DNA of 64,000 nt from an uncultured Collinsella sp. Its GTDB lineage: Bacteria > Actinomycetota > Coriobacteriia > Coriobacteriales > Coriobacteriaceae. How positions within the stretch are numbered: the stretch's first letter is position 1; each line of letters starts with the position of its first letter. Both the position numbers and the translations under genes were made by a program. A model generated the notes under the pieces. It saw only the letters and a program-made list of their open reading frames with translations. It was not told where the DNA came from and ran no database searches. Below, piece by piece: positions 42,805 to 62,472 of the stretch. The DNA is taken from the NCBI GenBank assembly GCA_947507155.1, contig CANNOC010000002.1, positions 62,001 through 126,000 of the forward strand. Direction: 5' to 3'.

Positions 42805-43082
42805 TTCTTAGCCTTAACCGTTAATCTGCTTTCTTACGTGCTTGTTAGATAGTAGCATTTTGCTGTTCCCGCGTAACAGTTAATTGAAAATCGTAACGGC
42901 GGCATCTGGGTATTTGCCATTCGTTTGCAACAGTTCTTTAGGTTTTATTTACGCAGCTAGTTGGCTCGCGACTCATTGACAGTGTTTTACCAACCAAATT
43001 GGTATCTTTTTGTTTGGCTGGTATGGTTTGTGCAATTATTAACCCCTTGTCAGTCCGCAGTTAACATGTCAGATTTCCACTT
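42805..43082. other. A/T-rich non-coding stretch upstream of the orphan HTH gene
   Basis: About 280 bp of clearly lower G+C than the surroundings, with no coding signal. It probably includes the promoter of the HTH gene. The ACCAACCAAATTGGT stretch near 42988 is weakly palindromic. Nothing else is recognisable. Confidence 0.4.
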
Positions 43083-43152
43083 ACTTTCCAACTTTCCACT
43101 TAACTTTCCAGCTTTCCACCTTGGGTGGTAAGTTAAGCGGAAAGTTGGAAAG
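43083..43152. repeat. Left copy of the repeat bracketing the AlbA_2 gene
   Basis: The segment 43093-43152 matches 44701-44760 at 58 of 60 positions in the same orientation. It is itself an imperfect palindrome: CTTTCCAACTTTCC on the left against GGAAAGTTGGAAAG on the right, with CCACC/GGTGG at the centre. It lies 35 bp beyond the AlbA_2 stop codon. Confidence 0.85.
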
Positions 43153-43187
43153 AAGTTGGGAGACCGAAGCATGGGCGACGGACAGCC

Positions 43188-44657
43188 CTACTTTGCAAGT
43201 CGATACCGTTGCCGCGGGCTACGCGGAGGTTCCATCGCCTCAATCTTGCCCGCACCAATCAAGCCCTTTATATGGTTGGAAACGGCGCTCCTGCTCAAAC
43301 CCGAAGCGTCCGTGAGCTCCTTAGTCGAGGCCGAAGAATGTGTTGCCAGGTAATCCAAGATTGCCTCGTCCACATGCCCCACAGACGTCACCTGTTCCGC
43401 CCGCATTGTCTTTCGCTTATCGAACGTCAGCGAAAAAGAAACCGTCGAGTTCTTTGGTTCGGGCGGCAGCATGTTTGCCCGCTCGAGCTGCTCACCTATC
43501 TCCTGATAACCAGTGCCGCGATTTTCGACCACGTAGCCACCACCTGGGAACGGCGTGGTCTCGAGGATATTTGAAAGAAACTGGTTTCTGGATGACGAAA
43601 CTCCAGAAACTCCCAGCGAATCGATCGTTACATCGCCGTACAGCCCGCCAGGATTGAGAATCTCGACGCGGTCGATATATAGGTTGACCTGCACTTGTGA
43701 GCCGCGCGCGGCGGAAGAGTAGTCGCGGTGCATGAGCGCGTTCGCTACCGCTTCGCGCAGCGCCACGGGCGGATAATCGGGCACATCTTTCCGGAACGCA
43801 CCCTCGATAACCGCGGCGTTTCGAGTGTTTCTCGCAACGGCGGCAAGCACGTCCTCAATCATGAAAGGGATCGGACCCAAAATGGTCTGAGAATCCACAA
43901 AACGCTTGTTATCACTTACTCGCTGCGTTTTTGTGGTCCCGGGGTACGCCGTAAAGGTCACATTGAGACGTGGGAAGAACTTTTGCGGAAACCGTCCCAT
44001 CGCGATAATTGCAGCAAGCGTCGGCACGATTGCGTCGTCCACCCTTTTGGTCACATGCAGGTCAAGGAGAATCTCATCGTCGCTTCTGGTGCCCAAAAGC
44101 CTAGGGTGTAGCTCGCGCTGGCGTTTTATAAACCCTTGCAAAAGATCGGCGTCAAGGTCATCGAGCGTGGCACCTTCGACCGGCTCGTCGTCGTATGTAG
44201 GCTGAACATGCTCCTCCATAAAGCGATCGATTTCGTAGGGAGTCATGCGCCGGTCGCCGTCGCCCGTACGGATAAAGGACGAATCGTACATTCCGCGTGC
44301 CGCAATATAGCAGGGTTTATCGCGTGGATGCATTTCTTTGATGCGCGCGCAAAGCACCAGCTTACCCTCGAAGGGGAGCACTTGGATATCCGGCCTCACA
44401 ACGGGCGTCAGCTTTTCACATGCAGAAGAGAGGGCGTCTTGCATCTTGCGGGCATCAAAACCCTCGACGGGCATAAACCCGTTCTTTTCGGAAATGCCGA
44501 GGATGATAAAGCCGCCCTGCGCGTTGGAAAATGCCGAAAGCGTCTCGACGATGCTTTTGGGGGGCGCGCCCTTGGCTTCTTTTACTTCGTACTGCTGGGT
44601 GTCGTTTCCTATTGTCCGCAGATGATGGATGACCTGCGCCAACCACTCCTCATTCAT
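43188..44657 (-). CDS. AlbA_2 / HATPase_c_4 / winged-helix regulator-like protein
   Basis: A 489-residue protein starting MNEEWLAQ at 44657, 7 nt after GGGAGG; the longer frame reads into the upstream repeat. An AlbA_2 (Schlafen-like) domain spans about 15-130 (YEVKEAKGAPPKSIVETLSA, SNAQGGFIILGI). A GHKL-like ATPase segment (about 270-370) carries REAVANALMHRDYS and VEILNPGGLYGD. The C-terminus is a winged helix (about 430-485; STKELTDASGLSRSAVSNHI). Such proteins are annotated as putative transcriptional regulators or helicase-like, often near mobile or defence loci; no function is proven. Near-identical repeats lie on both sides of the gene. Confidence 0.85.
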   Translation of the reverse strand: MNEEWLAQVIHHLRTIGNDTQQYEVKEAKGAPPKSIVETLSAFSNAQGGFIILGISEKNGFMPVEGFDARKMQDALSSACEKLTPVVRPDIQVLPFEGKLVLCARIKEMHPRDKPCYIAARGMYDSSFIRTGDGDRRMTPYEIDRFMEEHVQPTYDDEPVEGATLDDLDADLLQGFIKRQRELHPRLLGTRSDDEILLDLHVTKRVDDAIVPTLAAIIAMGRFPQKFFPRLNVTFTAYPGTTKTQRVSDNKRFVDSQTILGPIPFMIEDVLAAVARNTRNAAVIEGAFRKDVPDYPPVALREAVANALMHRDYSSAARGSQVQVNLYIDRVEILNPGGLYGDVTIDSLGVSGVSSSRNQFLSNILETTPFPGGGYVVENRGTGYQEIGEQLERANMLPPEPKNSTVSFSLTFDKRKTMRAEQVTSVGHVDEAILDYLATHSSASTKELTDASGLSRSAVSNHIKGLIGAGKIEAMEPPRSPRQRYRLAK

Positions 44658-44667
44658 GCCGAACCTC

Positions 44668-44760
44668 CCAACTTTCCAACTTTCCACCTAACTTACCAGC
44701 TTTCCACTTAACTTTCCAGCTTTCCACCTTAGGTGGTAAGTTAAGTGGAAAGTTGGAAAG
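44668..44760. repeat. Right copy of the repeat bracketing the AlbA_2 gene, in its promoter region
   Basis: It contains the 60-bp unit 44701-44760 (58 of 60 identical to 43093-43152) plus a partial extra unit at 44668-44700, with repeated ACTTTCCA motifs. It ends only about 10 bp upstream of the AlbA_2 start codon, so it may include that gene's promoter or operator. Confidence 0.85.
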
Positions 44761-44798
44761 TTGGTGGAGAGCTGGGGCAGCAGTAGGCCAAGCGAACA

Positions 44799-44831
44799 AG
44801 AAAAAGGGCGGCAACCGGGTGGTTGCCGCCC
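44799..44831 (-). terminator. Terminator of the surface-protein operon
   Basis: On the minus strand an 11-bp stem (GGGCGGCAACC with GGTTGCCGCCC, 4-nt loop) is followed by TTTTTCTTG, 10 bp past the stop of the giant gene. Confidence 0.93.
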
Positions 44832-44840
44832 CTCGCGTAG

Positions 44841-47800
44841 CTAGTTGGTTTTCGTCTCGTGCCGAATGCCCTCGGTGTTGATGCGCGCTAGCGTGTACGT
44901 CACGTAGTCGGAGTGCGAATAGCCATCAAGGTTGCTAACGTTGACCGGTGTGTCGTCGACAACGTTGCCGGTCATAATATTGGCCGTAAGCACCAAGCGG
45001 TAGTTTGCGTAAGTTTGGTTCTCACCCTCAACATTCGTATTCACTTTAACGCGGAAGGCATGCTTAAAGGCAAGGCTGTTGCCGTCGCGCGTGAGGAACG
45101 CGCCGTTGGTCTTGGTGTCGGTGAACACATAGCTGTTGCCGTCGGCGGATGCCGCACCCGTGCCTAGGTAATCGCTGCCGAGCACCGTAATGTAGTTCGA
45201 GATATCGCCGACCGGAGCATAGCCGCCATCATCTTGCCGCTGCTCCAGGCTCAGCGTGTAGGTCACCGTGTTTGCGGCGTCGATCTTAGCCTCGGCGCCC
45301 GTGAGCTTGCTCAGGTCGTAGGTACCCACCAGAGCGATCTCGCCGTCAGCGGACTTGAGGTCATCGATGTTGATGCCCAACTGGGATTTCTTAGACGCCT
45401 CGAGCGCGATGGTCGATGAGCCCACATCCATACGGTAGTAGCCGGCGCCGCCATCGTTGTATGCCGAGTTGCTACTGGTGCTGAGCGTGTCGGCATGCGT
45501 GGAAAGGTACGCGCGGTAGTTGGGTTTGGTGTAGCGGTCGGTGCCGCTGTTCTGCGAGGCCACGATACCCGCCTGGCAGGCAGGCTCCGTCATGGTGAGC
45601 GCGGCCCTCATGGTAACGGTGAAGGCGTTGACATGGTTCTTGGCGATCTCGCGCAGGCCCGACATATCGATGGGATTACCCTCAGCATCGGCAAGCACCA
45701 GTGACATGTCGCCACCGTTCGCAGTCCAACTAAGGCCCGACACCACTGGGGTCTCCTTCGTGCCGGCCAGATTCCAACCCGACCCGCCCCAGGTGTAGTA
45801 GTTATCACCCACCTTAACGTAGAACTCATACGTGCCCTGCGTGCCCGTGGGGTATCCTACCGAGCCCGCGATGACGCCATCGTGATAGGTGACAAGCGAC
45901 GAATCGAGCTGATAATACAGCGCGTCAGAGCTCGTGTATTGCTGGCTCGAGTCAAACGTCACGGTGTCGCTCACGTTCATGGAAAGCGAATAGGTGGCTT
46001 CCTTGAGCTCCATCCGGTTGATGCTGTCCCTGTTGTCGACGAGGTTACGCTTGTTGTCAACGAGGCTGTGCGTGTAGTTTGATGCCACGCTGTAGGTCGA
46101 GGGCGTATTCTGGTGCCCATCCTCGGCAGCCTTGCCGTCGGCTGCTTTCTTGCCTCGCAGCAGGTAGTTGATGTGCTCGTTGAGGCTCGTGTCCACCGTG
46201 GTGGCGGTGTAGCCGTTGACGCCCGCGGACCCCGCCGGCGTGCGCACCACCAAGTAGAAGTTTTCGCTCTTGGGCTCTTCCTTATCAACGGAGAGGGTAT
46301 AGAACGTGCCCGTCGCGTCGGAAGAAGTGCGCGCGCGGTAGTACGCGCCATCGACCTTGGCGCCAGCCATCTTCGCGAGTTCGGCCTGGCTCTTGTCCTT
46401 GACCTCGTCATCGGCGAGCTTGACCCAAGCGCCGTCCTTGTCCTCCTTGGCCTCATCGGCCTTCACGCCCACGATTTCGCTCAGCCACGGTTCGGTGTAG
46501 TAAGCCTTGTTGCCAGCGTCCACAAACTCGGTGAGCTTGACTGACGTCGCGCCGCCCGTGCCCACCGTGTAGTGATATTCGCGGCTGTTGTTGGCCGTGT
46601 CCACGAGTGTGAGCTGTGTACCCTCGGGCAGCGTGGCACCGAAGGTAATGCTCTTGTTGAGCGGACCCATAGAGCCGCCGGCTTCGAGCAGCGTGTTCCA
46701 GCCGTAATCGACCGGCTTGCCCCGAGCGCTGCCATAGGTCCAGGTAAGGTAGCCGGTCATGGTGTCGCCGCTGCTCACAAGTACGTGCTTGTCGTATTTT
46801 GTCGCATAGTCGGCAGCCTTGAAGTTCGCACCTTCGGAGTAGGTGGCGGTAAAGTCGATCTCGAGCATGCGCTTGACGATGATGGGTACCTGTACACGAT
46901 AGCTCTGGCCGGCCTCGCTAAAGGTGACCGTAAGCAGCGTGAAGCGCCCCTGCTCATTGTCCCAGTCGGTGCTCGCGCGGAATGCCATAGAGCTCGTGCC
47001 ATTGTTGAGCACCTTGAGCGTGGGCGCTTGCGAGGCGGCTACGTCCTTGACGAAGGTGCCGTTATCGGCGAGCGAGAAGACCTCGGCGGTGGCGGTCACA
47101 TGCGCGGTGCTGCCGTTGAGGCGGCAGGCATCGGAGAAGCCGCCATTGGTCACGATGTTCAGGTAGCTCTCCACCGTCGTGGTATCGTTGCCCGGAATCA
47201 CGAGCACGGGGAAGTCAGTTTTGGCCTTCTTGTCCGAAGTAATGTTGTTAGCGTTATAGGTGCTACGCGAGCTGTCCGCGCTATAGGTGCTCGTGTTTTG
47301 GTATGCGCCGGCATCATTGATGCCGGCGATGTTGGTGTAGGTGTAGCGGCCGGGAACGCGGGCACCCGCTTGGCTTTGGATGGTCGTCGCGGTGTCAATG
47401 GCGGCGCCGTCGCCAAACAGGTAGCGGTCGGTGGTGTCGCCGTCGGAGGCACGCACCGCCATCGTGCTCACGGGCCTCGTGGTCACGTACGGACTCGTTG
47501 CCGTGGTAGCAGTATCGCCTGCGCCGTAAAGCGTTTTGTTCTCGTTGGGCGCGGCAGCCGTGCCGTTGTAGTCGCCGAAGGCAATATAAGTTTTCTCGTT
47601 AACAGCAGCCGTATTCGTATTGGTCGTGTAAACCATCGGCGGCAGGTCGCTCGTGGTCTTGCCACTACCGGGCTTTACTTCCACGCCCGCTGCGGAAAGG
47701 CTGTACTTACCATCCCCCGTGTCAACCTCGCCCAAGAGTACGCCCTGGGTTTTGCCCGCATTGTAGCTATTGCTGTCCATGAGCACGTTTAACAGATGGA

Positions 47801-50800
47801 ACTGGCCGCGCCCGTCGCCCATAATGCCGCCGTTGGACCTTTCGCTAAACGTGGTGTTGGATACCTTTGTGTTGGTAACGTCGATGACGACGGATCCGCT
47901 GTTACTCGCGTTATTCGCGCCCAGCAGACCGCCGCTCCAGTTACCCTTAATCGTAGCGTTCTCGATCGCGATGTTGTTGCAGGCTATATTCACATTGCTG
48001 AAGAAGTAGCCGATAAGCCCGCCCGAGCATTTGCCGGTGCCGGCGATGCTGACATTCTTGACACTGCAGTCGTCGAACCAGTACTTGTTGGGGCTACCGC
48101 TACTCGTAACCTCACCAATCAGGCCGCCCGCATTGTAGATGCTATTGTTCGTTCCGGCCTTATCGCCGATGACGGCGTTCTCGGTGCCGTTTCCGCCATC
48201 AATGCGCACGTTGCTCATAGTAATAACGCCGCCACGGGCGCGTCCGACCACGCCGCCGGCGCCCATATGGTCATCGGAGTTCGACCCGGTGGCTAGCACG
48301 TTTACCCCAGAGATGACTGCCGTGCACGACGACTGGGCCGCTGTGGTGGTGCCGATGTTGGTGTTGACCGAGATATCGCTTCTTTCGACATAGCCGAGCA
48401 CGCCGCCCACGTAGGGCACTGTCCCTGTGGCAGTTATGGTCGAGTTTTTGCCAACGGTCCTTTCGCTCACCCCTGTGCCTGCGGTTGTCCACACACCGCA
48501 CGCCGAGGCGACCGTACCCACATAGCCACCGACATTCTTCTCGCCCGTGACGTTAAGGCCAGTGTATGAGCAGTCATAGAGATACGCGGGGCCCCACCCG
48601 TCCCCGAACTCGACCATATAGGTTCTGTCTTCGCTCGTAGTTCGTCTGGCGCGGCCCGAGCTGCCAAGAAGCCCTCCTACGCTCTTTGCGCCCGACACGG
48701 TGCAGTTCTTCATCTGCACGTTGCGGTAGATGCCGCACGTGCCGTCGTCGTAGTTGGCCGTTGCACCCGCCAAAAGGCCGGCACCGGTAAGGTCGTTCGG
48801 CGCCTCTCCTGGTTTGGCTTCGCCGTTGGTGTCGATATAGGTGAGCGCTACGTTGCAGTTGCTAAAGGTGAGGTCTTTGACCTGCGCGCCGTCGTTCGCG
48901 GTGACGCTCTGCCCCACATTGGTGGAGGTGAACATCACGGTGCTGAATAGACCACCCACGCCCGAGACCTTATAGTCGTCGTCGGCGTATTCGACGACGC
49001 CGTAGGCGGTGCCTTCGGTACCCACCGTGATGGTGGCGCCGTTACCGTCGATCGTGGCTACGTGCGGCGTAATACGGTCGCGGTCGGTGCCCGGCTGGTT
49101 CGAATTGCAGGCATTGGAATAGTAGCGGCCGTTTAGGCCCACGTACCCCGTGCCGTAGTCGGTCATATCGTAGGTGTCGCCCTGCTTGAACTCCAAGCTC
49201 ATGCCGATCGATTTCGACGCGCACACATAGCCCGTTTGGTAGTCGGCAGCGTAGGACGCCACCAGGTAGGGCGAATTTACATCGTCATCATGGTCGAGCG
49301 GGCCGTGCCACCTCTGCTTGCCGGGGGCCTTCTGGTCGTCGTTTTTGGCGATTTCGAAATCGCCGGCAGCACTCTCAGGCTTGCCCACATTTGCGTAGTT
49401 AGCATTCCGTACCTTGCCATATTCCTTGTTGCCAAACAGGTAGCCGCATATCGCCGGGTCTTGCGAATCGCTGCCCCAGTAAGCCTTGGAACCGCGGAAC
49501 ACGCCATTATTGGAGTAGTTGGTATGTGCCGCGCCAGCACCCGCACCCGAGCTGATGATGGCCGAGAGCACCAAAAGGCCCTGGGCGTTTTTCACCATGG
49601 TCACAGGAGCCTCGGCGTTAGTGCCGAGGTACTTGTTGTCGGTGCCCGTGGTGGTGACACAGGGGGTTCCTTTTTTTGTGAGCTCGTTAATCTGGTAGTT
49701 AGCGTTACCGTTTTCAACCTTACAGCCCTCGCTAAAGGCATAGCCATCAATCACGCGACCGACGTAGGGATTGTTGTAGAGATCAAAGTTGCCCTTTCCC
49801 AGACCACGAGATTTGTCACCAGTTCCAGCACGCCAGGAAGATTTTCCGCTTTTGTCCATATTGCGGAAAATCACGCCGCCACCCGCAATGGCACCGACGT
49901 AGCCACCAATGGGAACAAGATGCGGCTTGTCGCCACCGCCCGTGACGGTAAATCCCGTTGTAGGGTTTTCGGCCGTCGTCCCATTAACGACCACGCCATC
50001 GATAATGTTATCGCCACCAAGGATGCAGCCGACAACGCCACCGAAAAACGCCGTCGGAACGCCGTCGGCATCCTTGGCAGAATAAGTAATAGTCGCCGAC
50101 GCGTTCACATAGCGAATATTCAGATCGCGCACCACGCTGCCGTAACTATAGGGAATAAGGCCGCGAAGCGAACCCTCGTTATTCTCTATCTTGATGGTTG
50201 CGTTTTTATTATCACTGCCAAAGTTGCCAACGATGACGCCCCTAAACGGGTTGGCCCTATTTCCAAAACCGCCAAACGATGCGCCGTCGAGAGTAATCGT
50301 ATTGCCCTCAGTAGGCTCGATGCTGTAATACGCGCTCTGCATATAGCGGTGCATGGTTTCGTCGCTCAGCGTCTGCGGGGAATTGGTCGACGCGTCTCCG
50401 GTCTTCTTCTCCCATTTATTATCGGTACCGTTCGCCTGCTTGTAGACGTACGTAACCTCATTGTCGGTCGAGTGATCGCTGCTGCGGCGAGTGCAGAGCC
50501 TACCCTGGTCGGCGACAATGGTGACCTCCCAGCCGTCAAGCGCCGTCATGTTATTAATGTAGTTGGCAATGGCATTCATCTCCGCCGCGTTTGTGACGGA
50601 ATAAGGATCGCCGTAGGTACCACATCCCATTACCAGCTTTGGAATGCGCTGGTTGACTTTAATTTCGTGATACTGGACGCCATCCTCGGCGGCTTTTCCC
50701 TTGTAAACATAAGGAAGGTAGTCACCGAACCAAGGCCTGACGTCACCGTCCTTCTTACCATCAACCGTCACATAGCCGCTCACGGCACCATACGTCGCTT

Positions 50801-53800
50801 CGTCGTAATACCAAAGCTGCTTGCCCGGGTACTCCGTACTCCCATCAATCTCGGATCCGTAGGTCACCTTGCCCGCATCGGCATCAGCCCTAGTAAAGGT
50901 GTAGTCCGCAGAGCCCGTGCCCGTGCTTCCGTAGCCAAAACTCTCCAGCAGGCTCGCATGGGTGAAGATCGTATTGTTCTCTTGGCTGGGCAAGCTGATT
51001 TGCTCAAACTTCGCCGTCACCTGATCGGCCTCACTGCCTACACCAAGCTTTCCGAACAGCGACGTAGCCGCCTTGGTGCCACTCGTGTACCCAGTAGTCT
51101 TGATATTCTTCGCGTTCAGGCTCACGTACTTCTGCATCTCGTTGATGAGCAGAGGCATATAGGCGTTAGCGTCCGTGGCGCTGTTGGCGCCGTCGACAAT
51201 CAGATTGTTGAGTGTAAGATCATCAATTGAGATCTTTCTAATCTTGGTGCCATTGCCGTCGCTGGACCCATACACGTAGCGGCACACGAGCGCGCCCGAT
51301 GAGCTTCCGCTCGCGCCAATAGCGTCAGTAGAGCTCTTTCCGTCATTGATAACGGGCCCAACGGTACCACCCAAAGTGACGTTGCTTACTGTGAGATCGC
51401 CGTCTGCCACCGTTTGAAAAAGACCGCAGTGCATGTTCTCGTGCTGGGTGGCATCGGAGTTTAGCTTGTTGCCATTCTGCTCGGCCTTGATCTTGGAGTA
51501 GTAGAAGGTGATGGCCGCATTATTAACCGTCACCTCTCCGATCGGTTGAGTGGGATAGTAGCTGTAGCCGGCCAAATCGATTGTGCCCGTTATGGTTATG
51601 GAATCATCGAGCCCTGTCGTACCATCGGGAACGATTGTCGAACGAATACCGGCGGGAGCATAGCAGAAAGCAGACCATAAGAGCAGCTTGTCCGCTGTAT
51701 CGATTTGACTGCCACTAAAGCCGCCTTCACAATTCTTAGAGGCTATGTCGAGGTTGTAGAAGTAGCGGGTATTGCCGTTCGTATTCTGGCTTCGACCGAA
51801 AGACGAGCGATTATGGTAGCTGTTGTCTTTTGTGGAATCGCCGTCCATGTCCAGCTTGTTTTTCTGTGTGTGTAGCGAAACGACCGTGTTCCAGTCGGCG
51901 TCCATGAGCTTGCTGCCGTTGTTTGGTTTTACACCGCTGCCAACCCATTCATCGAAGGACGTTACGCCCGACGCAACGATGGCCCCCTCGCCGGTGGGCA
52001 CCCTATAGGCGGTATCCCAATAAGCCCTGTCCTCCAAGTACAGGCCTAGGTAGCTCTCGACGCCATATGTCGTCTTATCATCCACCTTGCAGCCGCGGCA
52101 AACTAGAACGCCGAGCGTCTGAGCGGCGCCTGCATTAATCTTTGTGCCCGAGAGATCGATGGCGTAGTTGTTGATAATCCAGTGACCGCTGGCTGCGTAT
52201 ACAAGGCCGCCAAGCTCCTTGGAATCATCCACAGTCGCGATTATAGAAGCGTTGGTCGTTTTCAAAGCATAGGAGTTTTCACTCTTGTTAATGTTGTCAT
52301 CTCCGATAGTTACGACCGCGTTGCCCCAGCTATAACCCAAGAGACCGCCCACGCCATTGAGCTTATCGCCGTTCTTTCCGACTCCCATCTTGAACGAGTT
52401 GAACGAAAGGCCCGTAATGTTAACGTCCTTTTTGGCCGAGTTGGCTATTGCCCCATCAGCCCCATAGGTGCTCTGTGCGATGCAGCCGATAAGACCGCCG
52501 ACCTGGGCAATCTTGCCGCTGGTGCAATTGCCGGTTTCGATTGATCCGGCGACTTCGAGGCCCGCAACATTGAATGACGAGCCATAATCGCCCACATAAC
52601 CAATGGCGCCGCCAATGCGACTATTGCCGTTAAGCGTTTTAGTTGCAGCGATGGTCGCTTGAGCCCTGCTGTTATCCTTAAACGCAACCGTAGAAGCCGC
52701 CGACACGCTGCCCGCAATACCACCAATGTTCACTTCGTTGCCGAACGTATCATCACACGCGATATTCGTTTTGCACGTTACGCCAGACAATGGCAGGTTG
52801 CCGACGATGGTACCTGCAAGCGACCCGGCATCGATAGCCGAACCGTTATCGAACTTCATGGAACCAGCGATTGTGACGTTGGAGATGGTTGCGCCGTTGA
52901 CGGCCGCGAACAAGCCCAAGCGGCCGTGGCGGTAGATTTTGCCGTTGCCGTTGCTCGTGTCATTGTCGTCGAGCACAGCTTCACCACGCTTGCCGTACGG
53001 CTCGCCGACGGCAAGGTTAATTGTGCCGCCACCGTTCAACGTTCCCGAGAAAACTTGCGAGCCGTCTGCACGATCCTGCGCGAAACCCGTTAGGCCCGTG
53101 CCCTTGAGATCAATAGTGCCGTTCACCGTAATGGTCGAGGACTGCAAGCCGTTAAGGTTGTTTTCGGTAACGCCGTCAACCATCGAGTAGTAGCCGTTGG
53201 TTTGCCAGGTAATCGCCAGCTTTGCGAAATCGTCGATACTTGCCAGCGCAAATGCATCGCCAGTTTTTACGAGCTTAGAGCTAAAGTTCCACTGGTGCTC
53301 TTTGTTGATGGAGATGAGGTCCTCGCTCAACGGGTTGCCCAAGCGAATGACCTGGCCGTAGCTGTACACGTCATCGATCTTGACGGGCGTAGAGGGGCGC
53401 TTATATTGCCATTTCTTGATATCGCCTGCGGCGGCGCCACTATCGCTTCCGCTACCGGCGGCAAAAATCAGCGAGTTGAAGTTCTCATAAATCAGCTGCG
53501 CGGTGTGATCATTTTCCACGAAGGTGGCCTCCGACAGGTCGGTGATACCGCTGAACTTGACGATGCCGAGCCACGACGACCCAACGACTCCGGCAAAGCC
53601 GCCGTTTGTGCCGCCGATGGTAGCGCCGCTGGCGGTTTTGACCTTCAGGCCACGCACTTCTAGAACGTTGTTTGTGTCCACGACGCCCACGGCGCCGCCG
53701 TATTTGCCATTTGCACTGGCGTAGCCCGAGGTTGAGCATGTCACTGTTGCATCACTGATGACCACGGCGGACACGTTAGTACTCCCGCCGCCTTCGCCAA

Positions 53801-55550
53801 GGTAGCCTACTAGGCCGCCTGCGTAGGTGAGTTTGCCGTTGGAGCCCACGCCGAACGACACCGCAGTATCACCCTGCACCGTAAAGGCATGCAGCGCGTC
53901 GCCGTTCTTCCTCCCCCACAGCTTGCCCACCAAGCCGCCGTAGTTGCCGTGCTTGTTGTCATCCTTGCCGTTTTGTAGCGTGCTTGTATACGAACCGCCA
54001 TTGACGGCCACGTCGCCGTTCGATATGTCGAGTACGCCGAACAGTCCGCCGGCGGAAGGGGCAGCGCTCGTGTTGGACACACTGAGCGCCACGCCCTTGC
54101 CAAAGTCGAAGATGCCGCTGTTGATGGTGAATGCGTCGGCAAACGAGGCGTCGCCGATAAGGCCGCCTGCATACGTCCCGGCAGATGACGATCCAACCGC
54201 ATGCGCGGGCTTGATGGCGACAGCCTTGCCCGAGGCTTCTTTTCCACTGTTATCCTTGCCCACGGTGAGCGTGAGCTTAGTCGCCTTACCGATAAGACCG
54301 CCCGCCGCGTTTTCGCCTGCGACGCTCAGCGCCGAGACATCGATGCCAGTTGGCAGGGCGACGGTGGCACCCTCCCGCGCCTCGCCGATAAGACCCCCCG
54401 CGTTGGCGTCAGCGGCTAACGCGTTGATGGTGGGCGTGCCGTTGAGGTTGTCCGGCAGGGTAAGGCCCGCAAGCGTAAGCGATGCTCCTTCGGCAAGGGT
54501 GTTCGCAAGCAAGCCCATGTTGCCTGCGCTCGATTGCATATCGACTGCCAGGGGGCTGTTCGCGCTTGTCGTATAGGTGGCGTTAAGCGTGAGCGCGCCC
54601 GTGACCTCGCCCACAAGCGGCGAGGTTAGCTTGCAGATGTCCTTTTCGGCATCGCTCTTGGGCGTGCCCACGGTAACGGTGGCAGCAAGCGTCTTGTCCG
54701 CGCCCGTGACCTTTGCGGCCACGATGGGCTGGGCATCGGTACCCTTCCAGGTGAGCTTTACGGTGCTGTTGGCGTCGCTGAGCTCGATGTTGTTGAAGAG
54801 CGTCTTGTTGGCGGTAAGGGACCTGCCGCCCAGGTCGAGCGTACCTTTGAAAGGGTAGGCATCGCTGCCGAAGCCCTGGAACGTGAGGCTACCCAGGCCG
54901 TCCACGATCTCCGCGCCGCACACGTCGAAGTCGATGCCGGTCGAGCCACCTTTGGAGATGTTCGCGTTCTGGTAGATGGCGGGATCGGTGTTGGAGATGG
55001 CGATAAGGTCGGCGTTGGACTCAAAGGTAATGGCCGTGACGGCGCCCAAGTCGTCAGTGATGACATTGCCGTCACCCAACGCGTGCCTGAGAGCCTCGAC
55101 AGTAGCGATGGGGTAGTTGGCGCCTGCCTGATCAGCAGCATCCGCGTCCGCGTCATCCGCTTGTTCTTCGTCAGCAGCGCCCTCATCGGTAGCCGCATCA
55201 TCTTGGGACGCGTCGCCCTCCGTTGGGGTATCGCCGTTAGTGGTTCCATCGGTCGTGGAGTCCTGCGATTCGCCAGCGTTGGTAGAACCGTCGCCGCCCT
55301 CGGTAGCGCCAGCGTCGGCGCCCGGAGTCGTTGCGGCGTCATCAGATGCAGCCTGGTCAGCATCTTGCAGCGCGGTGGCCACGCCATCCTGTACGGAGCG
55401 CGCCGTGTTGCCCGCGGCGCGCGCGGCGGAGACGGATGCCTCCATAACGGCGTCGAGCTCTTGTGCGAACACCTCTGTGGAGGGCGCGAGCGCCTGGAAA
55501 ATCATGATCGCAGTCAGGCATGCGGTTGTTATGCGCTTTGCCGTTCTCAT
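44841..55550 (-). CDS. Giant secreted repeat protein (3569 aa), putative surface adhesin
   Basis: A Sec signal peptide (residues 1-29, ending EVFAQE) is followed by an Ala/Asp/Thr-rich acidic low-complexity stretch (about 45-145). Residues about 150-2700 form a long series of beta-strand repeats with more than 20 GGLxG-type turns (GGLIGKATK, GGLVGYLGE, GGLLGYSWG, GGLIGYFFS), resembling GLUG-motif beta-helix adhesins. The last ~800 residues look like beta-sandwich modules, ending near YANYRLVLTANIM. There is no LPxTG sorting signal and no C-terminal membrane helix, so attachment must depend on partners, perhaps the three membrane-anchored proteins encoded upstream. Part of the middle appears lower in G+C. 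The function (adhesion, fibre formation) is inferred. Confidence 0.88.
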   Translation of the reverse strand: MRTAKRITTACLTAIMIFQALAPSTEVFAQELDAVMEASVSAARAAGNTARSVQDGVATALQDADQAASDDAATTPGADAGATEGGDGSTNAGESQDSTTDGTTNGDTPTEGDASQDDAATDEGAADEEQADDADADAADQAGANYPIATVEALRHALGDGNVITDDLGAVTAITFESNADLIAISNTDPAIYQNANISKGGSTGIDFDVCGAEIVDGLGSLTFQGFGSDAYPFKGTLDLGGRSLTANKTLFNNIELSDANSTVKLTWKGTDAQPIVAAKVTGADKTLAATVTVGTPKSDAEKDICKLTSPLVGEVTGALTLNATYTTSANSPLAVDMQSSAGNMGLLANTLAEGASLTLAGLTLPDNLNGTPTINALAADANAGGLIGEAREGATVALPTGIDVSALSVAGENAAGGLIGKATKLTLTVGKDNSGKEASGKAVAIKPAHAVGSSSAGTYAGGLIGDASFADAFTINSGIFDFGKGVALSVSNTSAAPSAGGLFGVLDISNGDVAVNGGSYTSTLQNGKDDNKHGNYGGLVGKLWGRKNGDALHAFTVQGDTAVSFGVGSNGKLTYAGGLVGYLGEGGGSTNVSAVVISDATVTCSTSGYASANGKYGGAVGVVDTNNVLEVRGLKVKTASGATIGGTNGGFAGVVGSSWLGIVKFSGITDLSEATFVENDHTAQLIYENFNSLIFAAGSGSDSGAAAGDIKKWQYKRPSTPVKIDDVYSYGQVIRLGNPLSEDLISINKEHQWNFSSKLVKTGDAFALASIDDFAKLAITWQTNGYYSMVDGVTENNLNGLQSSTITVNGTIDLKGTGLTGFAQDRADGSQVFSGTLNGGGTINLAVGEPYGKRGEAVLDDNDTSNGNGKIYRHGRLGLFAAVNGATISNVTIAGSMKFDNGSAIDAGSLAGTIVGNLPLSGVTCKTNIACDDTFGNEVNIGGIAGSVSAASTVAFKDNSRAQATIAATKTLNGNSRIGGAIGYVGDYGSSFNVAGLEVAGSIETGNCTSGKIAQVGGLIGCIAQSTYGADGAIANSAKKDVNITGLSFNSFKMGVGKNGDKLNGVGGLLGYSWGNAVVTIGDDNINKSENSYALKTTNASIIATVDDSKELGGLVYAASGHWIINNYAIDLSGTKINAGAAQTLGVLVCRGCKVDDKTTYGVESYLGLYLEDRAYWDTAYRVPTGEGAIVASGVTSFDEWVGSGVKPNNGSKLMDADWNTVVSLHTQKNKLDMDGDSTKDNSYHNRSSFGRSQNTNGNTRYFYNLDIASKNCEGGFSGSQIDTADKLLLWSAFCYAPAGIRSTIVPDGTTGLDDSITITGTIDLAGYSYYPTQPIGEVTVNNAAITFYYSKIKAEQNGNKLNSDATQHENMHCGLFQTVADGDLTVSNVTLGGTVGPVINDGKSSTDAIGASGSSSGALVCRYVYGSSDGNGTKIRKISIDDLTLNNLIVDGANSATDANAYMPLLINEMQKYVSLNAKNIKTTGYTSGTKAATSLFGKLGVGSEADQVTAKFEQISLPSQENNTIFTHASLLESFGYGSTGTGSADYTFTRADADAGKVTYGSEIDGSTEYPGKQLWYYDEATYGAVSGYVTVDGKKDGDVRPWFGDYLPYVYKGKAAEDGVQYHEIKVNQRIPKLVMGCGTYGDPYSVTNAAEMNAIANYINNMTALDGWEVTIVADQGRLCTRRSSDHSTDNEVTYVYKQANGTDNKWEKKTGDASTNSPQTLSDETMHRYMQSAYYSIEPTEGNTITLDGASFGGFGNRANPFRGVIVGNFGSDNKNATIKIENNEGSLRGLIPYSYGSVVRDLNIRYVNASATITYSAKDADGVPTAFFGGVVGCILGGDNIIDGVVVNGTTAENPTTGFTVTGGGDKPHLVPIGGYVGAIAGGGVIFRNMDKSGKSSWRAGTGDKSRGLGKGNFDLYNNPYVGRVIDGYAFSEGCKVENGNANYQINELTKKGTPCVTTTGTDNKYLGTNAEAPVTMVKNAQGLLVLSAIISSGAGAGAAHTNYSNNGVFRGSKAYWGSDSQDPAICGYLFGNKEYGKVRNANYANVGKPESAAGDFEIAKNDDQKAPGKQRWHGPLDHDDDVNSPYLVASYAADYQTGYVCASKSIGMSLEFKQGDTYDMTDYGTGYVGLNGRYYSNACNSNQPGTDRDRITPHVATIDGNGATITVGTEGTAYGVVEYADDDYKVSGVGGLFSTVMFTSTNVGQSVTANDGAQVKDLTFSNCNVALTYIDTNGEAKPGEAPNDLTGAGLLAGATANYDDGTCGIYRNVQMKNCTVSGAKSVGGLLGSSGRARRTTSEDRTYMVEFGDGWGPAYLYDCSYTGLNVTGEKNVGGYVGTVASACGVWTTAGTGVSERTVGKNSTITATGTVPYVGGVLGYVERSDISVNTNIGTTTAAQSSCTAVISGVNVLATGSNSDDHMGAGGVVGRARGGVITMSNVRIDGGNGTENAVIGDKAGTNNSIYNAGGLIGEVTSSGSPNKYWFDDCSVKNVSIAGTGKCSGGLIGYFFSNVNIACNNIAIENATIKGNWSGGLLGANNASNSGSVVIDVTNTKVSNTTFSERSNGGIMGDGRGQFHLLNVLMDSNSYNAGKTQGVLLGEVDTGDGKYSLSAAGVEVKPGSGKTTSDLPPMVYTTNTNTAAVNEKTYIAFGDYNGTAAAPNENKTLYGAGDTATTATSPYVTTRPVSTMAVRASDGDTTDRYLFGDGAAIDTATTIQSQAGARVPGRYTYTNIAGINDAGAYQNTSTYSADSSRSTYNANNITSDKKAKTDFPVLVIPGNDTTTVESYLNIVTNGGFSDACRLNGSTAHVTATAEVFSLADNGTFVKDVAASQAPTLKVLNNGTSSMAFRASTDWDNEQGRFTLLTVTFSEAGQSYRVQVPIIVKRMLEIDFTATYSEGANFKAADYATKYDKHVLVSSGDTMTGYLTWTYGSARGKPVDYGWNTLLEAGGSMGPLNKSITFGATLPEGTQLTLVDTANNSREYHYTVGTGGATSVKLTEFVDAGNKAYYTEPWLSEIVGVKADEAKEDKDGAWVKLADDEVKDKSQAELAKMAGAKVDGAYYRARTSSDATGTFYTLSVDKEEPKSENFYLVVRTPAGSAGVNGYTATTVDTSLNEHINYLLRGKKAADGKAAEDGHQNTPSTYSVASNYTHSLVDNKRNLVDNRDSINRMELKEATYSLSMNVSDTVTFDSSQQYTSSDALYYQLDSSLVTYHDGVIAGSVGYPTGTQGTYEFYVKVGDNYYTWGGSGWNLAGTKETPVVSGLSWTANGGDMSLVLADAEGNPIDMSGLREIAKNHVNAFTVTMRAALTMTEPACQAGIVASQNSGTDRYTKPNYRAYLSTHADTLSTSSNSAYNDGGAGYYRMDVGSSTIALEASKKSQLGINIDDLKSADGEIALVGTYDLSKLTGAEAKIDAANTVTYTLSLEQRQDDGGYAPVGDISNYITVLGSDYLGTGAASADGNSYVFTDTKTNGAFLTRDGNSLAFKHAFRVKVNTNVEGENQTYANYRLVLTANIMTGNVVDDTPVNVSNLDGYSHSDYVTYTLARINTEGIRHETKTN

Positions 55551-55625
55551 CTGGTCCTACCTCGTTCTATCTCATGCCCCGCGCGGGGTCTCAAAATCTA
55601 TGCTTGCGGATTGCTTCGGCTAGCC

Positions 55626-56624
55626 CTACGCGGCCGAACACGAAACGCCAATGGCTTCCCAGCTGGTCGGCTTCGAATCACCCTTCCGGTAAAAGGTGAT
55701 GATTTCCGAGCCAGGAGATGCATCGTATGTGATCGAGTTGCCGCTGACGGCTGCTTGCCCATTACCGTTCTTGTGGTTCGCCTCAAAGAACGGATCGAGC
55801 TCGACCCCGCTTCCCCACGTGAGCTTTACCTTAGTCGTAGCGCCCGTAACGGTCACACGATAGTTGTAGGCGTCGAAGTCGCCGACATTCGTATCATCCT
55901 TGTTCTTGTCGACCCACTCGCCCGAAACGCCCGAAGCCGTCACCTCTGCACGTTCGGAAGGCGCAATCTTGGCGGCGAGCCATTTAAGGTTGGTGCCGGG
56001 GCTATTGGAGCCGACCTTGGCTTTAACGGTGAAGGATGCTTTGTTGAGGTCCGCCTTGGAAAACGTAACCTTATAGGTATACATAGTTGCCTTGTTGGCA
56101 GGGAAGGAAAGGTCGACCGTGCCGCCCGCCGTCAGCGTGGGCTTACCGTTAACACTCCAAGTGCCCGTCGTTCCCGTCGCCTCCACGCTCAGCGTCGCGT
56201 TAACGTCCTTGTCGTTGACCTTGTTCTTGTCGCCCAGCAGATGGTTGTAAATGCGAAAGGTAAAGAAGCAGTTTTCCCCACTCGTGTCGGCGATGACACT
56301 TCGGACGGCAATACCCTCGTCATTCAGCGTCTCATTCGTGTAACCCGTGAGCATGTCCGAAGCAAACAGCGCCTGCGACGTGCCCGAGACAGCGACCGAC
56401 TTAAGAAAGTCACCCGCCAAAAAGGCCGTGTAGGTAAGGTAGGTACCCGCCACAATCGCGACGGCGCATAGCAGCACCGCAACCGTCCATAGGCGCTTGC
56501 GCACTTTAGAAGTAGGGGTCGCCGACTCCGTGCAGCAAGGCTCTGTCTTAGAATTATCTACCTGCGCAAAGTGCTTACCAACAGGCCTCGCGATTTCATT
56601 TTGCTCGTTCTTGTCTTTTCGCAT
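55626..56624 (-). CDS. Single-pass exported protein of the surface operon (third gene)
   Basis: A 332-residue protein not recognised as a known family. A cytosolic leader with a CC pair (residues 1-45) is followed by one membrane helix (about 46-68, LWTVAVLLCAVAIVAGTYLT) and an extracellular Ser/Thr/Asn-rich beta domain (about 75-332). That domain has strands like VTGATTKVKLTWGSG and EIITFYRKGDSKP. It lacks catalytic motifs, LPxTG and a lipobox. A good Shine-Dalgarno (GGAGGGGAGGGG) precedes it. It lies 24 bp after the second gene and 75 bp before the giant gene, so all four are likely cotranscribed. Confidence 0.8.
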   Translation of the reverse strand: MRKDKNEQNEIARPVGKHFAQVDNSKTEPCCTESATPTSKVRKRLWTVAVLLCAVAIVAGTYLTYTAFLAGDFLKSVAVSGTSQALFASDMLTGYTNETLNDEGIAVRSVIADTSGENCFFTFRIYNHLLGDKNKVNDKDVNATLSVEATGTTGTWSVNGKPTLTAGGTVDLSFPANKATMYTYKVTFSKADLNKASFTVKAKVGSNSPGTNLKWLAAKIAPSERAEVTASGVSGEWVDKNKDDTNVGDFDAYNYRVTVTGATTKVKLTWGSGVELDPFFEANHKNGNGQAAVSGNSITYDASPGSEIITFYRKGDSKPTSWEAIGVSCSAA

Positions 56625-56648
56625 CTGGCGCCCCTCCCCTCCTACTTA

Positions 56649-57449
56649 TTAGTTGCCGCTCGTGACGCGAGCGATTAGATAAACCATGTCGGTCTCTTTG
56701 ACGTTGGAGACCGTCTTTCCGCTTACGGTCACAACGCCCGGATTCCACGTACATTCGATGATGAAGTTCGTGGCGGCGTTGGCTGTTTTGCCATTCCAGC
56801 CATCGAGCCCACTCCCTGCGAACTTGTGGTACCGATACAGCGGACGGGCGTTTTTCTGGACATTCACGTACGAGCCGTACGTCGGGTCGTTTGCCTCAAG
56901 CTCTTTAGCCAACGCACTTGTCCCGTCCGCGGAGTTGATAAAAGCAAGCTCAATCGGGGTGCTGCTCTTCTTGCTCCATGAGTAGGTGCGGTTGAGCCCG
57001 TCGAGGCCGACCACGGTGCCGTTTTTATCGTTCGGATTATTGACCGTCACGTGATACACGTTGATTGTCAGCCCCGTGATATTCGTGGTATTTGCCACCT
57101 GCAGCTCAAACGCTTGACCGCCGGCAGCGGGATCGCCATTGTCGCTCCGCACGCAAAACGCGCGACGAATGGTCACGGTGCCGTCTATGTTTTTAACATC
57201 GCCCCGTGACTCATCATACGAAATCTCGATGGGCTCGATGCTCGTCTGGTTGGGACCCATGATCTTAAGCTGCGCGGGCGTTTGGATCTTGCCCACCGTA
57301 GACAGACTTTTGCTGCCCACAAACCACGAGAGCGACAAGCCGATGATAAGAGCGATTGCCGCCAGCAATATCAGGACCGCAAGGGCCTGTGCGCGGCGGT
57401 TTTCTATCCAATTGCGGGCATCGCCGAGGCGCGTTTGCATGGTGCTCAT
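56649..57449 (-). CDS. Single-pass exported protein of the surface operon (second gene)
   Basis: A 266-residue protein of unknown family. A membrane helix spans about 22-43 (ALAVLILLAAIALIIGLSLS) and leads into WFVGSKSLSTVG, then an extracellular beta-rich domain. The helix-then-short-hydrophobic/aromatic start (LSWFVGSK) resembles the mature starts of TasA/CalY-type fibre proteins, but no SipW peptidase is encoded nearby. Strand-like segments such as QAFELQVANTTNITGLTINV are common in such subunits. Its ATG overlaps the TGA of the first gene by four bases. Confidence 0.78.
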   Translation of the reverse strand: MSTMQTRLGDARNWIENRRAQALAVLILLAAIALIIGLSLSWFVGSKSLSTVGKIQTPAQLKIMGPNQTSIEPIEISYDESRGDVKNIDGTVTIRRAFCVRSDNGDPAAGGQAFELQVANTTNITGLTINVYHVTVNNPNDKNGTVVGLDGLNRTYSWSKKSSTPIELAFINSADGTSALAKELEANDPTYGSYVNVQKNARPLYRYHKFAGSGLDGWNGKTANAATNFIIECTWNPGVVTVSGKTVSNVKETDMVYLIARVTSGN

Positions 57450-58483
57450 GAGCTCACGCCCTCCTGAGCGCTAATTCTAAGTTGGATGTATTTGACCTTA
57501 TTGCCGATCTGCTCGTCGGCATTGTTGTACAGCGCCGAGCAGATGGCGGTGTCGCTGAAGGACATGCTAGACGAAACCTCGGGGGCGTTGGCAGCACTCG
57601 TGCCGTTTGCCGCGCCATAGAAGTAGTTCGCTTTATGCTCGTTCATGTCCGCCTGCAAAGCGCCGTAGTCAGACTTTGCGTCGCCCGCCGCCGCAAACAG
57701 GTTCTTGTAGTAATTCGTGTTGCCCGTAAGGACGAAGTTTTGGAAGTACTCCGGCCACACCCAGTACAGGCTGATGGTGACGGGTTTGTTCGTTGGCTTG
57801 TTCACATCGCCGTTTTCGCAAAATTCGCACTTGCGAATCTCGATCTTGCTATCAACCACGCGGCCCGAGTAATACCCGTTCTGGTCGCAGCTCGTAAAGA
57901 ACAGCAAGTGGCCTTTGATCAAGCCAAGGAGCGCCTCCGCCTCGGGCGCCAGCGTTCCCCCGTCCCCAACAACGCCAACAGTGTTCGTGACCTTAAGCAA
58001 GCGCGACAGACTGATCGTGACCCCGTCCAGGTCACTCACCAGCGGCTTCACCGTAAATGTAATCTTGCCGCGAGCACCCGGGTACAGAGAGCCCGCGGTC
58101 TCGTTGTTGAGGTTGGAGCCGAGCGTTACCGTCATGGCGTCGGTCGTATCCAGGCCATCGATGGCATACTTTTCCTCGGGCGTGCGCTCGGAGCGCTCGT
58201 AATAGCCCACGTGCGCGCCGGACTCACCCTCGCCCGCGGCGGTCAGCGTGTACCGATCCGCCTTCGCCCCGATCGTGCCCCCCGTGGCGCTCACTCGGTT
58301 ATTCGCAGCAAACCAGGCCAGGCATGCAAAGATGGCAACGATGGCGGCCAGCACAAACAGACCGCTCACCAGGAAATCCTTCCAGAAATCCTTGAGGGTC
58401 CGCACGTGCTCGTCGGCAGCTTGACGGTACTCGGCCGCCGTCTTGTGCTGCTGGGGCTCGCTATGTCGGTCCATGCCACTCAT
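57446..58483 (-). CDS. Single-pass exported protein of the surface operon (first gene)
   Basis: A 345-residue protein of unknown family. After a 37-residue charged cytosolic N-terminus, a helix (about 38-60, FLVSGLFVLAAIVAIFACLA) runs into WFAANNRVSATGG, again TasA/CalY-like. The extracellular part (about 65-345) is beta-rich and includes two close cysteines (CEFC) and an aromatic WPEYFQNF segment. It heads the operon (ATGA overlap with the next gene). The ribosome site is weak; ATG 58474 is an alternative start. Probably a minor surface subunit or anchor. Confidence 0.78.
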   Translation of the reverse strand: MSGMDRHSEPQQHKTAAEYRQAADEHVRTLKDFWKDFLVSGLFVLAAIVAIFACLAWFAANNRVSATGGTIGAKADRYTLTAAGEGESGAHVGYYERSERTPEEKYAIDGLDTTDAMTVTLGSNLNNETAGSLYPGARGKITFTVKPLVSDLDGVTISLSRLLKVTNTVGVVGDGGTLAPEAEALLGLIKGHLLFFTSCDQNGYYSGRVVDSKIEIRKCEFCENGDVNKPTNKPVTISLYWVWPEYFQNFVLTGNTNYYKNLFAAAGDAKSDYGALQADMNEHKANYFYGAANGTSAANAPEVSSSMSFSDTAICSALYNNADEQIGNKVKYIQLRISAQEGVSS

Positions 58484-58760
58484 CGCTTACATTTGCCCTG
58501 CTTGCGGGCGTGCCATCCTTTTCGCTCGGTCGCGTTTATCCATTGTTCGCAGGTAGAGAATTCAGGCAGAATACAACACCGTACGATAAGGTAAAAGAAT
58601 AGCATTGACCTGCGGTTTGCTCCACAACGCAAGCCTTAATGATGTCTTAAAGATTACGAATAGCAGCTTCTTCCATATGCCAAGGACATGGTGCAAACAA
58701 ACCTGACCCCCTTTGCACCAATCCGCAGCACCGGGCAGCGGACACACGGCGTGCCGCCCC
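58484..58760. other. Region upstream of the surface operon
   Basis: A 277-bp gap without a gene between the surface operon (start 58483) and the end of the DUF4143 ATPase gene. It must hold the operon promoter. No palindromic operator or terminator is evident by eye. Confidence 0.4.
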
Positions 58761-60065
58761 TTAACACCCCAACGCGCGCACGGGTATCACGTAGATACCG
58801 TCCTCGACCTCGCGGGCGTACTCACCCACCCCCACAATCACGGCCATAAACTCCGGTTCGCGTGTGCGTGAACGAGGATTTCCACAGACCTTCTTGCGAA
58901 CGCGCTTGAGGCTCTCGACGCCGGCGCTCGTTTTATCTTCACTCACCTTAATCTCAAAGGCGGCCCACCGTCCGTCGGCTAGCTGCACGATAGCATCGCA
59001 CTCAAGGCCCGAATCGTCGCGATAATAGCGCACGGGCGTGCTATCCAGCAGGTCGAGCGAACGTGCGTAGACCGAAAGGTCGCGTATGACCAAATTCTCA
59101 AACACCAGACCAAATCTCTGCCAGTCGGCAAGCAGCGCCTGCGAGGACATACCTAGCAAGGCGCAAGCAAGGCTCGGATCTGCCAGATAGCGCTTGGGCT
59201 TGACGGTAAAGCGCCGTTTGTCGCGCGCGGCGGGAACCCAACCGGGGACCTCCTCGAGAATAAACATGCCTTTGAGGGCATCCAGGTACCTGCGCACCTT
59301 GGTCTCATCGGCAAACGCTGCGGGTTCCTCCTCGGCACCGAACATATCCATAAGAATCGTTTTATACGTGGTTGCCTGTCCCAGATTGCGCGCGATCGAT
59401 GCGGAGACTCGACGAGCAATATCGGGGTCGAGACCGACCGCCGGGAAGCTGCTCGAAAACGTGGTGTTGAGATATTCACGGGCGATGAGCTGGGCGTCAG
59501 CCGAAACCATATCGATCGCCTCGGGCCAGCCGCCGCGGCAAGCGGCTTCGACAAGCCCCGGTGTATCGCCATCGCACCGGCAGGGCTCAAAACGATGCTC
59601 AAACAAGCCCGCCAGGCTCACCTTGCCGTTGGACTCACCTGTCTCGGCAAGCGTCATAGGGTGCATGCGGACGCGGCCGATGCGGCCAGCTCCACTATGC
59701 GCGGGCGCCTCCGCCTTTGAGCCAAACGCGGGCGTGGCGGAACCCGTGAGGATATAGGCGCCGCGCGTACCCCGGGTGCGGTCAACCTCGTGTCTAACGT
59801 AGTCCCAAATCTGGGGAACGCGCTGCCACTCATCGATAATATGCGGACGGTCTCCCAGCAACATCATCGCTGGGTCGGCACGCGCGAGGTCGAGATTCTC
59901 GTCGACATACGAGGCGGACGCCCCGTGCTCGAGCGCGGCCCACGTCTTGCCGCACCACTTGGTGCCCGCAATCTCGACCGCGCCAAAGACACGAAGGTAG
60001 CGCTCGATTTGCGCATCCACGATACGTGGGATGTATCCGTCCCGATGTAGCCTCTCGCCCGCCAT
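58761..60065 (-). CDS. AAA_14/DUF4143 ATPase
   Basis: A 434-residue ATPase of the family annotated AAA_14 plus DUF4143. The Walker A variant is GTKWCGKT near residue 35, with Walker B HIIDEWQRVP near 75 and the sensor-like YILTGSA near 105. The DUF4143 region (about 225-400) ends with the RYYRDDSGLECDAIV and AFEIKVSED stretch, reminiscent of a nuclease-like fold core. These ATPases are widespread and frequently autoregulated, but their biological role is not known. The start at 60065 (MAGERLHRDG) is accepted. Four regular 12-bp repeats lie upstream. Confidence 0.9.
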   Translation of the reverse strand: MAGERLHRDGYIPRIVDAQIERYLRVFGAVEIAGTKWCGKTWAALEHGASASYVDENLDLARADPAMMLLGDRPHIIDEWQRVPQIWDYVRHEVDRTRGTRGAYILTGSATPAFGSKAEAPAHSGAGRIGRVRMHPMTLAETGESNGKVSLAGLFEHRFEPCRCDGDTPGLVEAACRGGWPEAIDMVSADAQLIAREYLNTTFSSSFPAVGLDPDIARRVSASIARNLGQATTYKTILMDMFGAEEEPAAFADETKVRRYLDALKGMFILEEVPGWVPAARDKRRFTVKPKRYLADPSLACALLGMSSQALLADWQRFGLVFENLVIRDLSVYARSLDLLDSTPVRYYRDDSGLECDAIVQLADGRWAAFEIKVSEDKTSAGVESLKRVRKKVCGNPRSRTREPEFMAVIVGVGEYAREVEDGIYVIPVRALGC

Positions 60066-60124
60066 GAGCCACCCCCGCAGATTTCCAGTTCCTGCTTTCT
60101 GATTCTTCTATTCCACTGTAGCAA

Positions 60125-60205
60125 ATTCGGATTTTCGGGTGGTTGCGATTCGGATTTTCGTGTTCATATAATTCGGATTTTCTTGTGTATGAGATTCGGA
60201 TTTTC
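60125..60205. repeat. Four 12-bp direct repeats at an exact 23-bp period
   Basis: ATTCGGATTTTC occurs at 60125-60136, 60148-60159, 60171-60182 and 60194-60205, separated by unrelated 11-bp spacers. A 23-bp period is about two helical turns, so bound proteins would sit on one face of the DNA. The block lies 60-140 bp upstream of the DUF4143 ATPase start, consistent with an operator array. Confidence 0.9.
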
Positions 60206-60236
60206 TGAACCCGCTGGTCAGGGGCACCTCTTATCG

Positions 60237-60274
60237 ACAAAAAGGCAGGGAGCACCGATACGGCACTCCCCGCC
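60237..60274 (-). terminator. Terminator of the flavin oxidoreductase gene
   Basis: On the minus strand a 13-bp imperfect stem (GGCGGGGAGTGCC with GGTGCTCCCTGCC) is followed by TTTTTG, 27 bp past the stop. Confidence 0.85.
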
Positions 60275-60300
60275 CACTCAATACGCGATAGCTTTCTCGA

Positions 60301-62331: not shown

Positions 62332-62472
62332 GGACATTCCTCTCTTGTAGGCGCGGCGGCGATGATGCCACGTAGTTGTCTAGAGGATATGACATGAGAG
62401 CACGGCGGCACAACGAAAATCGGCGAATATCAGGTGACGGCAGGTGGATGGGGCGGGACGGCCCGTCGGTTC
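62332..62472. other. Upstream region of the flavin oxidoreductase gene
   Basis: A 141-bp segment separates the start codon from the palindrome array. It presumably carries the promoter. No palindrome other than the array, and no riboswitch, is visible. Confidence 0.35.

Follow-up and report, generated by a model that had tools for sequence, protein, structure and literature searches.

Gene organization of the locus

Four neighboring genes in the genome of an uncultured Collinsella sp. encode three small proteins with a single N-terminal helix and one giant secreted protein. This raises the question of whether they build a common surface structure and, if so, how the giant is held outside the cell. 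Little is known about the surface structures of Collinsella and its relatives among the gut Actinomycetota, and a search of the open literature returned no paper containing both 'Collinsella' and 'SipW'. The locus provides a defined, testable gene set. It was analyzed within a window of 64,000 nucleotides (contig CANNOC010000002.1, positions 62,001 to 126,000), and coordinates below refer to this window.

The four packed genes described in the initial annotation were recovered as open reading frames on the minus strand, with tight gaps and a terminator-like stem at the end. The first gene, g1 (57446..58483), encodes a 345-aa single-pass protein with a cytosolic tail and helix, an 'AWFAANN' junction and a beta-rich outer domain. 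It overlaps by 4 bp with g2 (56649..57449), which encodes a 266-aa single-pass protein with an 'SWFVGSK' junction and a beta-rich outer domain. After 24 bp follows g3 (55626..56624; 332 aa, single-pass, 'TYTAF' junction), located directly 5' of the giant gene and separated from it by 75 bp. The giant gene (44841..55550) encodes a protein of 3569 aa comprising a signal peptide, an A/D-rich linker, GG-x-x-G (GLUG-like) repeat regions and a C-terminal region. GGAGG-type ribosome sites precede g2 and g3. The operon is closed by a strong terminator-like hairpin on the same strand (44803..44834), whose 14-pair stem starts 6 bases past the giant stop codon.

The annotated single N-terminal helix was found in each small protein as one strongly hydrophobic segment (residues 37-55 in g1, 22-40 in g2 and 45-63 in g3) with a long polar domain after it. 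The proposed junction type holds for g1 and g2, but the 'TYTAF' junction of g3 falls outside the AWF/SWF type. The operon can be regarded as real because all four genes, with their order kept, recur in three further genomes.

Distribution and co-occurrence

Separate queries with g1, g3 and the giant C-terminus were run against 398 Coriobacteriia genomes, and separate queries with g1, g2 and g3 against 67 genomes of the family. For g1, g3 and the giant, all strong matches came from an identical set of four of the 398 genomes, and for g1, g2 and g3 from an identical set of 3/67. The carriers are three Collinsella genomes (that of the window, G037 and G038) and G313, which belongs to another family of the same order and contains the four genes in the same order at about 39-50% identity. 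Marginal matches were left out of the carrier set, namely g1 in G227 and g3 in G289, G293 and G310; the latter three had E-values of 4e-4 to 1e-3 and covered the helix region.

Wherever one of g1, g3 and giant C-terminus matched strongly among the 398 genomes, the other two did as well. The claim that the parts belong together is thus borne out by their co-occurrence, although four carriers are few. The pattern named in advance as contradicting it, many genomes with the small genes but no giant, was not seen in the 398 class or 67 family genomes. A pattern scan of genome contigs for relatives returned none beyond the two Collinsella metagenome assemblies that the searches had found. Phage origin was considered and rejected: megablast of the giant C-terminal half against phage records gave nothing, and g1 had no relative in viral contigs. 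The four-gene unit is rare and horizontally moving.

Genomic island

According to blastn comparison of the window with six close Collinsella relatives, the operon lies in an island of ~17.3 kb (43012..60296) that is missing in all six. At the empty site of these relatives, an oxidoreductase gene (window 60301-62337) borders immediately on sequence corresponding to window 43011 onward, at 88-96% identity. The island contains the operon, an ATPase gene and an AlbA-type gene. The AAA_14/DUF4143 ATPase gene (58761..60065, minus strand) lies at the island head, and DUF4143-like ATPase genes likewise adjoin the operon in G313. The AlbA_2 (Schlafen-type)/ATPase-like/winged-helix gene (43188..44687, minus strand) lies inside the island here, and the G038 island is without it. 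Just upstream of the DUF4143 gene, four copies of GAAAATCCGAA are arranged on the minus strand at exact 23-bp spacing (60126..60205); five copies each are present in the G037 and G038 islands. This looks like a regulatory or iteron array.

No direct repeat of at least 10 bp, as expected of a target-site duplication, was found at the island ends, and no integrase was seen among the genes between them. Island transfer is therefore likely to have proceeded by homologous recombination through the shared flanks.

Several further features of this region were recorded. A palindromic repeated sequence of the type GTGGAAAGCTGGAAAGTTAAGTGGAAAG occurs after the giant gene (44670-44750) and after the AlbA gene (43040-43150), and similar palindromic repeats thus flank the AlbA_2 and winged-helix gene on both sides. 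In G038, a stretch similar to this type follows the giant gene. Separately, a large secreted protein starting with MSKYTRGLLAVILAVVLVLP is encoded near the empty site, downstream of it, in island-free relatives (L069-L072); in G008 it comprises 2081 aa and ends in a C-terminal helix and basic tail.

Allelic mosaicism

The strongest new result concerns sequence variation within the operon. Flanking genes differ between carriers by 4-11% at fourfold sites. Within the operon, divergence for the same genome pair switches between ~2-6% and ~60%, even inside single genes. Between the window genome and G037, g1 differs by 5.9% of fourfold sites over codons 1-74 and by 54% over codons 75-345, g2 by 63% and g3 by 57%; in the giant gene, the values are 46-64% for codons 1-800, 4.6% for codons 801-1000 and 61-64% for codons 3001-3400. 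The pairing with G038 is near-identical from g1 through giant codon 400, then diverges by 39-72% over codons 401-800 and by 1.7% over codons 801-1000. G037 and G038 in turn agree over giant codons 601-800 (12.9%).

All three genome pairings are therefore found within one gene, which argues for recombination between old alleles; purifying selection alone would be insufficient. By sequence comparison, the operon is clearly a mosaic of alleles. Such a patchwork fits what is typical of exposed surface molecules under pressure to vary, and its strength suggests that the molecule encounters immunity, phages or competing ligands.

The giant protein

The giant was annotated as having more than 20 glycine-rich turns, and the count confirmed this: 23 GG-x-x-G turns were found, compared to a mean of 1.7 and a maximum of 7 in shuffled sequences. 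Its three orthologues have 22 turns each. The N-terminus reads as a signal peptide, and no hydrophobic segment of the protein exceeded the threshold. Residues 30-145, of which 30 are Ala and 21 Asp, form an A/D-rich stretch, after which the repeat regions begin. The final residues are conserved among orthologues.

Domain-model searches found no recognised binding domain in the giant. The GLUG Pfam model PF07581 scored 12.4 bits on a single stretch, under its cut-off of 20.5, a literature search for GLUG adhesins gave nothing relevant, and PDB sequence profiles gave no convincing match to the C-terminus or to one repeat region. The C-termini of the giant and its orthologues lack an LPXTG-type signal and a helix with basic tail, in agreement with the annotated absence of a wall-sorting signal. 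Sortases are encoded elsewhere in the genome.

Small proteins and their relation to TasA

For the proposed likeness of the small proteins to TasA, the evidence points both ways. In its favor, the signal-to-mature junction of g1 matched that of a 'TYAWYVANN' paralogue on contig C8 (E 2e-6, profile probability 93). Against it, the TasA/camelysin model PF12389 matched nothing in the genome, g1-g3 included, with a positive Bacillus subtilis control, and structure matches were weak. None of the three proteins matched TIGR04088, the SipW-dependent signal-peptide model, at E<=1. This model appears weak for the class, since it scored just 15.0 against a cut-off of 19 on a protein adjacent to a SipW-type gene on contig C8 of the same genome. 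PDB sequence profiles and NCBIfam models yielded no relative of g1, g2 or g3, and a g2 profile had no significant match to g1 or to the C8 proteins, reaching the helix region at best.

The structure prediction that had been suggested as a check produced only weak matches of TasA or pilin type. Models of g1 and g2 were built from three sequences and reached mean pLDDT values of 58.6 and 59.8, respectively. The low-confidence g1 model aligned with the TasA fibre at Z 4.9 (rmsd 4.0, 140 residues). Donor-strand pilins, together with the TasA fibre, made up most of its best rows (Z 4.5-5.0), and values near 5 are common by chance. A Foldseek search with this model returned nothing at E<=0.001. The g2 model aligned with TasA at Z 5.4-5.5 (rmsd 5.0-5.3, 143-146 residues), with many unrelated beta-sandwich chains ranking higher. 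The predicted folds are compatible with a TasA-like jelly roll, while TasA membership is not established.

At locus L020, a gene pair (L020:12193-14351) includes the gene for a 315-aa 'TYAWYVANN' protein, with a DUF4143-type ATPase gene close by (L020:16007-17596). A homologue of the 315-aa protein is encoded about 4 kb from the G313 operon (L023:3708-6092).

SipW-type peptidases

According to the initial annotation, no SipW-like peptidase was encoded at the locus, which left the assembly without a known route. The first statement is true within the window and false for the genome, where contig C8 encodes two SipW-type peptidases (TIGR02228 scores of 112.4 and 81.9 bits, cut-off 51.85). That a route is missing is not supported, given these peptidases and those in the same cluster in remote relatives (see below). 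Both C8 enzymes score under the cut-off of 190 for the Bacillus SipW equivalog NF046067 (93.8 and 88.6 bits). They adjoin four proteins with 'TYAWF/TYAWY/FAWF' junctions, and the C8 cluster is possibly a second, multi-subunit fibre system.

Within the family, TIGR02228 matches above the cut-off were found in 11/67 genomes, including all three carriers (hypergeometric 0.003, relatedness ignored). G313 has two SipW-like genes. In G037, the sole SipW-type gene lies at a contig end, with its partners beyond view. This distribution would link the four-gene locus to SipW-type processing outside Firmicutes.

Some additional observations concern these loci. In the C8 cluster (L021:342-9499), two large genes (565 and 748 aa) are situated between the two peptidase genes, and a cluster in G313 (L061:6523-17797) resembles it. 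In G038, another match to SipW-type genes carries an in-frame TAG (G038:C15:944-1408) and is possibly a decaying copy.

Distant relatives of the arrangement

Among the 398 class genomes, the giant C-terminus also matched weakly in two, G225 and G309 (E 1e-4 and 7e-4), which encode secreted proteins of 4758 and 4858 aa. Directly before each of these lies a gene for a small single-pass protein resembling g3 (hhalign probability 86, E 5e-6), the likeness spanning the helix and early outer domain. Upstream of the g3-like gene, both genomes encode SipW-type peptidases (two were checked) and more small proteins. The two large proteins were considered as orthologues of the giant and rejected, as they share only a short weak stretch with it and have no GG-x-x-G turns.

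G227 was reached via its marginal g1 match, and G112 and G130 via a search with the g3-like family. All three encode SipW and small proteins, and the g3-like gene is once more followed by that of a large secreted protein. A g3-like gene thus stands immediately 5' of the gene for such a protein in five genomes (G225, G309, G227, G112 and G130), whose clusters also contain SipW. This recurring arrangement shows that the two kinds of gene go together, while the large proteins are not orthologues of the giant. It suggests a wider rule in the class: a gene for a small single-pass protein directly before one for a very large secreted protein, with SipW attending.

Proposed assembly and alternative explanations

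We interpret the locus as a horizontally acquired surface-appendage operon, SipW-processed and TasA-like, that displays a giant variable outer protein, and give this interpretation an even chance of being correct. Under it, the giant would leave the cell via Sec by its own predicted signal peptide, and the N-terminal helix would insert g1, g2 and g3 into the membrane. SipW-type peptidases acting in trans would most likely cut the small proteins, or at least g2 and g3, just after the helix. The freed N-terminal segments may then pair subunits by strand donation, as in TasA/CalY fibres, and the resulting short fibre or base could keep the giant on the outer side of the wall with no need for a sortase. 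The best candidate for a direct linker is g3, whose gene adjoins that of the giant. Exposure and variability would reside in the repeat rod of the giant, which probably binds a ligand of host or microbial origin.

Conservation between families bears on the proposed cleavage and strand donation. In g1, the cytosolic tail and helix (21/36 and 15/20 identical residues) are better conserved than the outer domain (107/250), so that g1 may be a membrane base or may never be cut. Its unusually conserved tail and helix make it the candidate base in the proposed appendage. In g2 and g3, the cytosolic tails show no conservation, and the segment following the helix, the would-be donor strand, is better conserved than the rest of the outer domain, at 11/18 identical residues in g2 (85/182 in the rest) and 18/29 in g3 (91/233 in the rest).

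The same conservation of g1 fits the chief competing explanation, in which g1-g3 stay uncut as single-pass membrane receptors and bind the giant non-covalently at the surface, with neither a fibre nor a SipW step. The single helix of each small protein and the lack of a SipW-substrate profile match also agree with it. The unconserved tails of g2 and g3, the junction likeness to 'TYAWF' proteins, the presence of SipW-type genes in all carriers and their absence from most relatives, and SipW in the same cluster in remote versions all speak for processing instead, and we consider uncleaved receptors unlikely, although a serious competitor.

It is less probable still that g1-g3 make up or control a fibre by themselves, the giant being an unattached, co-expressed secreted matrix protein or enzyme. 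The giant does have its own Sec signal, no sorting signal and no recognised binding domain. Nevertheless, the four genes co-occur without exception and in constant order in four genomes from two families, and in five distant genomes a g3-like gene is again paired with that of a large secreted protein; both findings speak against this explanation. A secreted polymorphic toxin or contact-inhibition system, with the giant delivering a variable C-terminal effector, would suit the great size of this secreted protein and the divergence of its C-terminal part, but was rejected as highly improbable, since variation extends across the entire operon, including the giant N-terminus and the small proteins, instead of being confined to a C-terminal module, the last residues of the giant are conserved, and the terminator directly after it is followed by no small immunity-like gene, the gene beyond being of AlbA type and absent in G038.

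In a more far-reaching reading, the locus might define an undescribed class of sortase-independent appendage in Coriobacteriia, in which a SipW-processed trio displays a giant repeat adhesin and antigenic variety arises as ancient alleles recombine at a single mobile locus. This broader proposal is tentative, and we regard it as doubtful.

Comparison with known systems

The giant resembles GLUG-motif repeat proteins (PF07581) in its recurrent GG-x-x-G turns within a long secreted protein, but differs from them in its sub-threshold score, confined to one stretch. The SipW clusters of the five distant genomes share with the four-gene unit a remote g3-like gene before a secreted protein of ~1800-4900 aa. 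In contrast to the unit, they have SipW within the cluster, and relatives of g1 or g2 type were not recognised in them; the 4758- and 4858-aa proteins of these other Coriobacteriales further differ from the giant in having no GG-x-x-G turns.

Among the closest described parallels is the SipW-processed TasA-TapA system of Bacillus subtilis (PMC9674648, PMC10151520). As far as the available portions of these sources describe it, that system likewise combines small proteins bearing an N-terminal helix or signal with a SipW-type peptidase in the genome and no sortase signal, and a beta-sandwich outer domain is a probable further likeness. Unlike its components, g1-g3 lack a TasA/camelysin profile match, and SipW is encoded in trans here. 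The TasA-TapA-SipW operon, as covered by the same portions, has no counterpart of the 3569-aa giant, and for the Collinsella unit a fibre and strand exchange are proposals. No giant partner is described in these portions, or in the corresponding part of PMC13082335, for TasA-TapA or for TasA-CalY-CapP of Bacillus cereus. The latter, by that account, combines two filament subunits with a different secreted partner and is sortase-independent. CapP is a repeat-tailed chaperone and g3 a single-pass protein, and the likeness is one of description; g1, g2 and g3 may nonetheless share out their roles in a comparable way.
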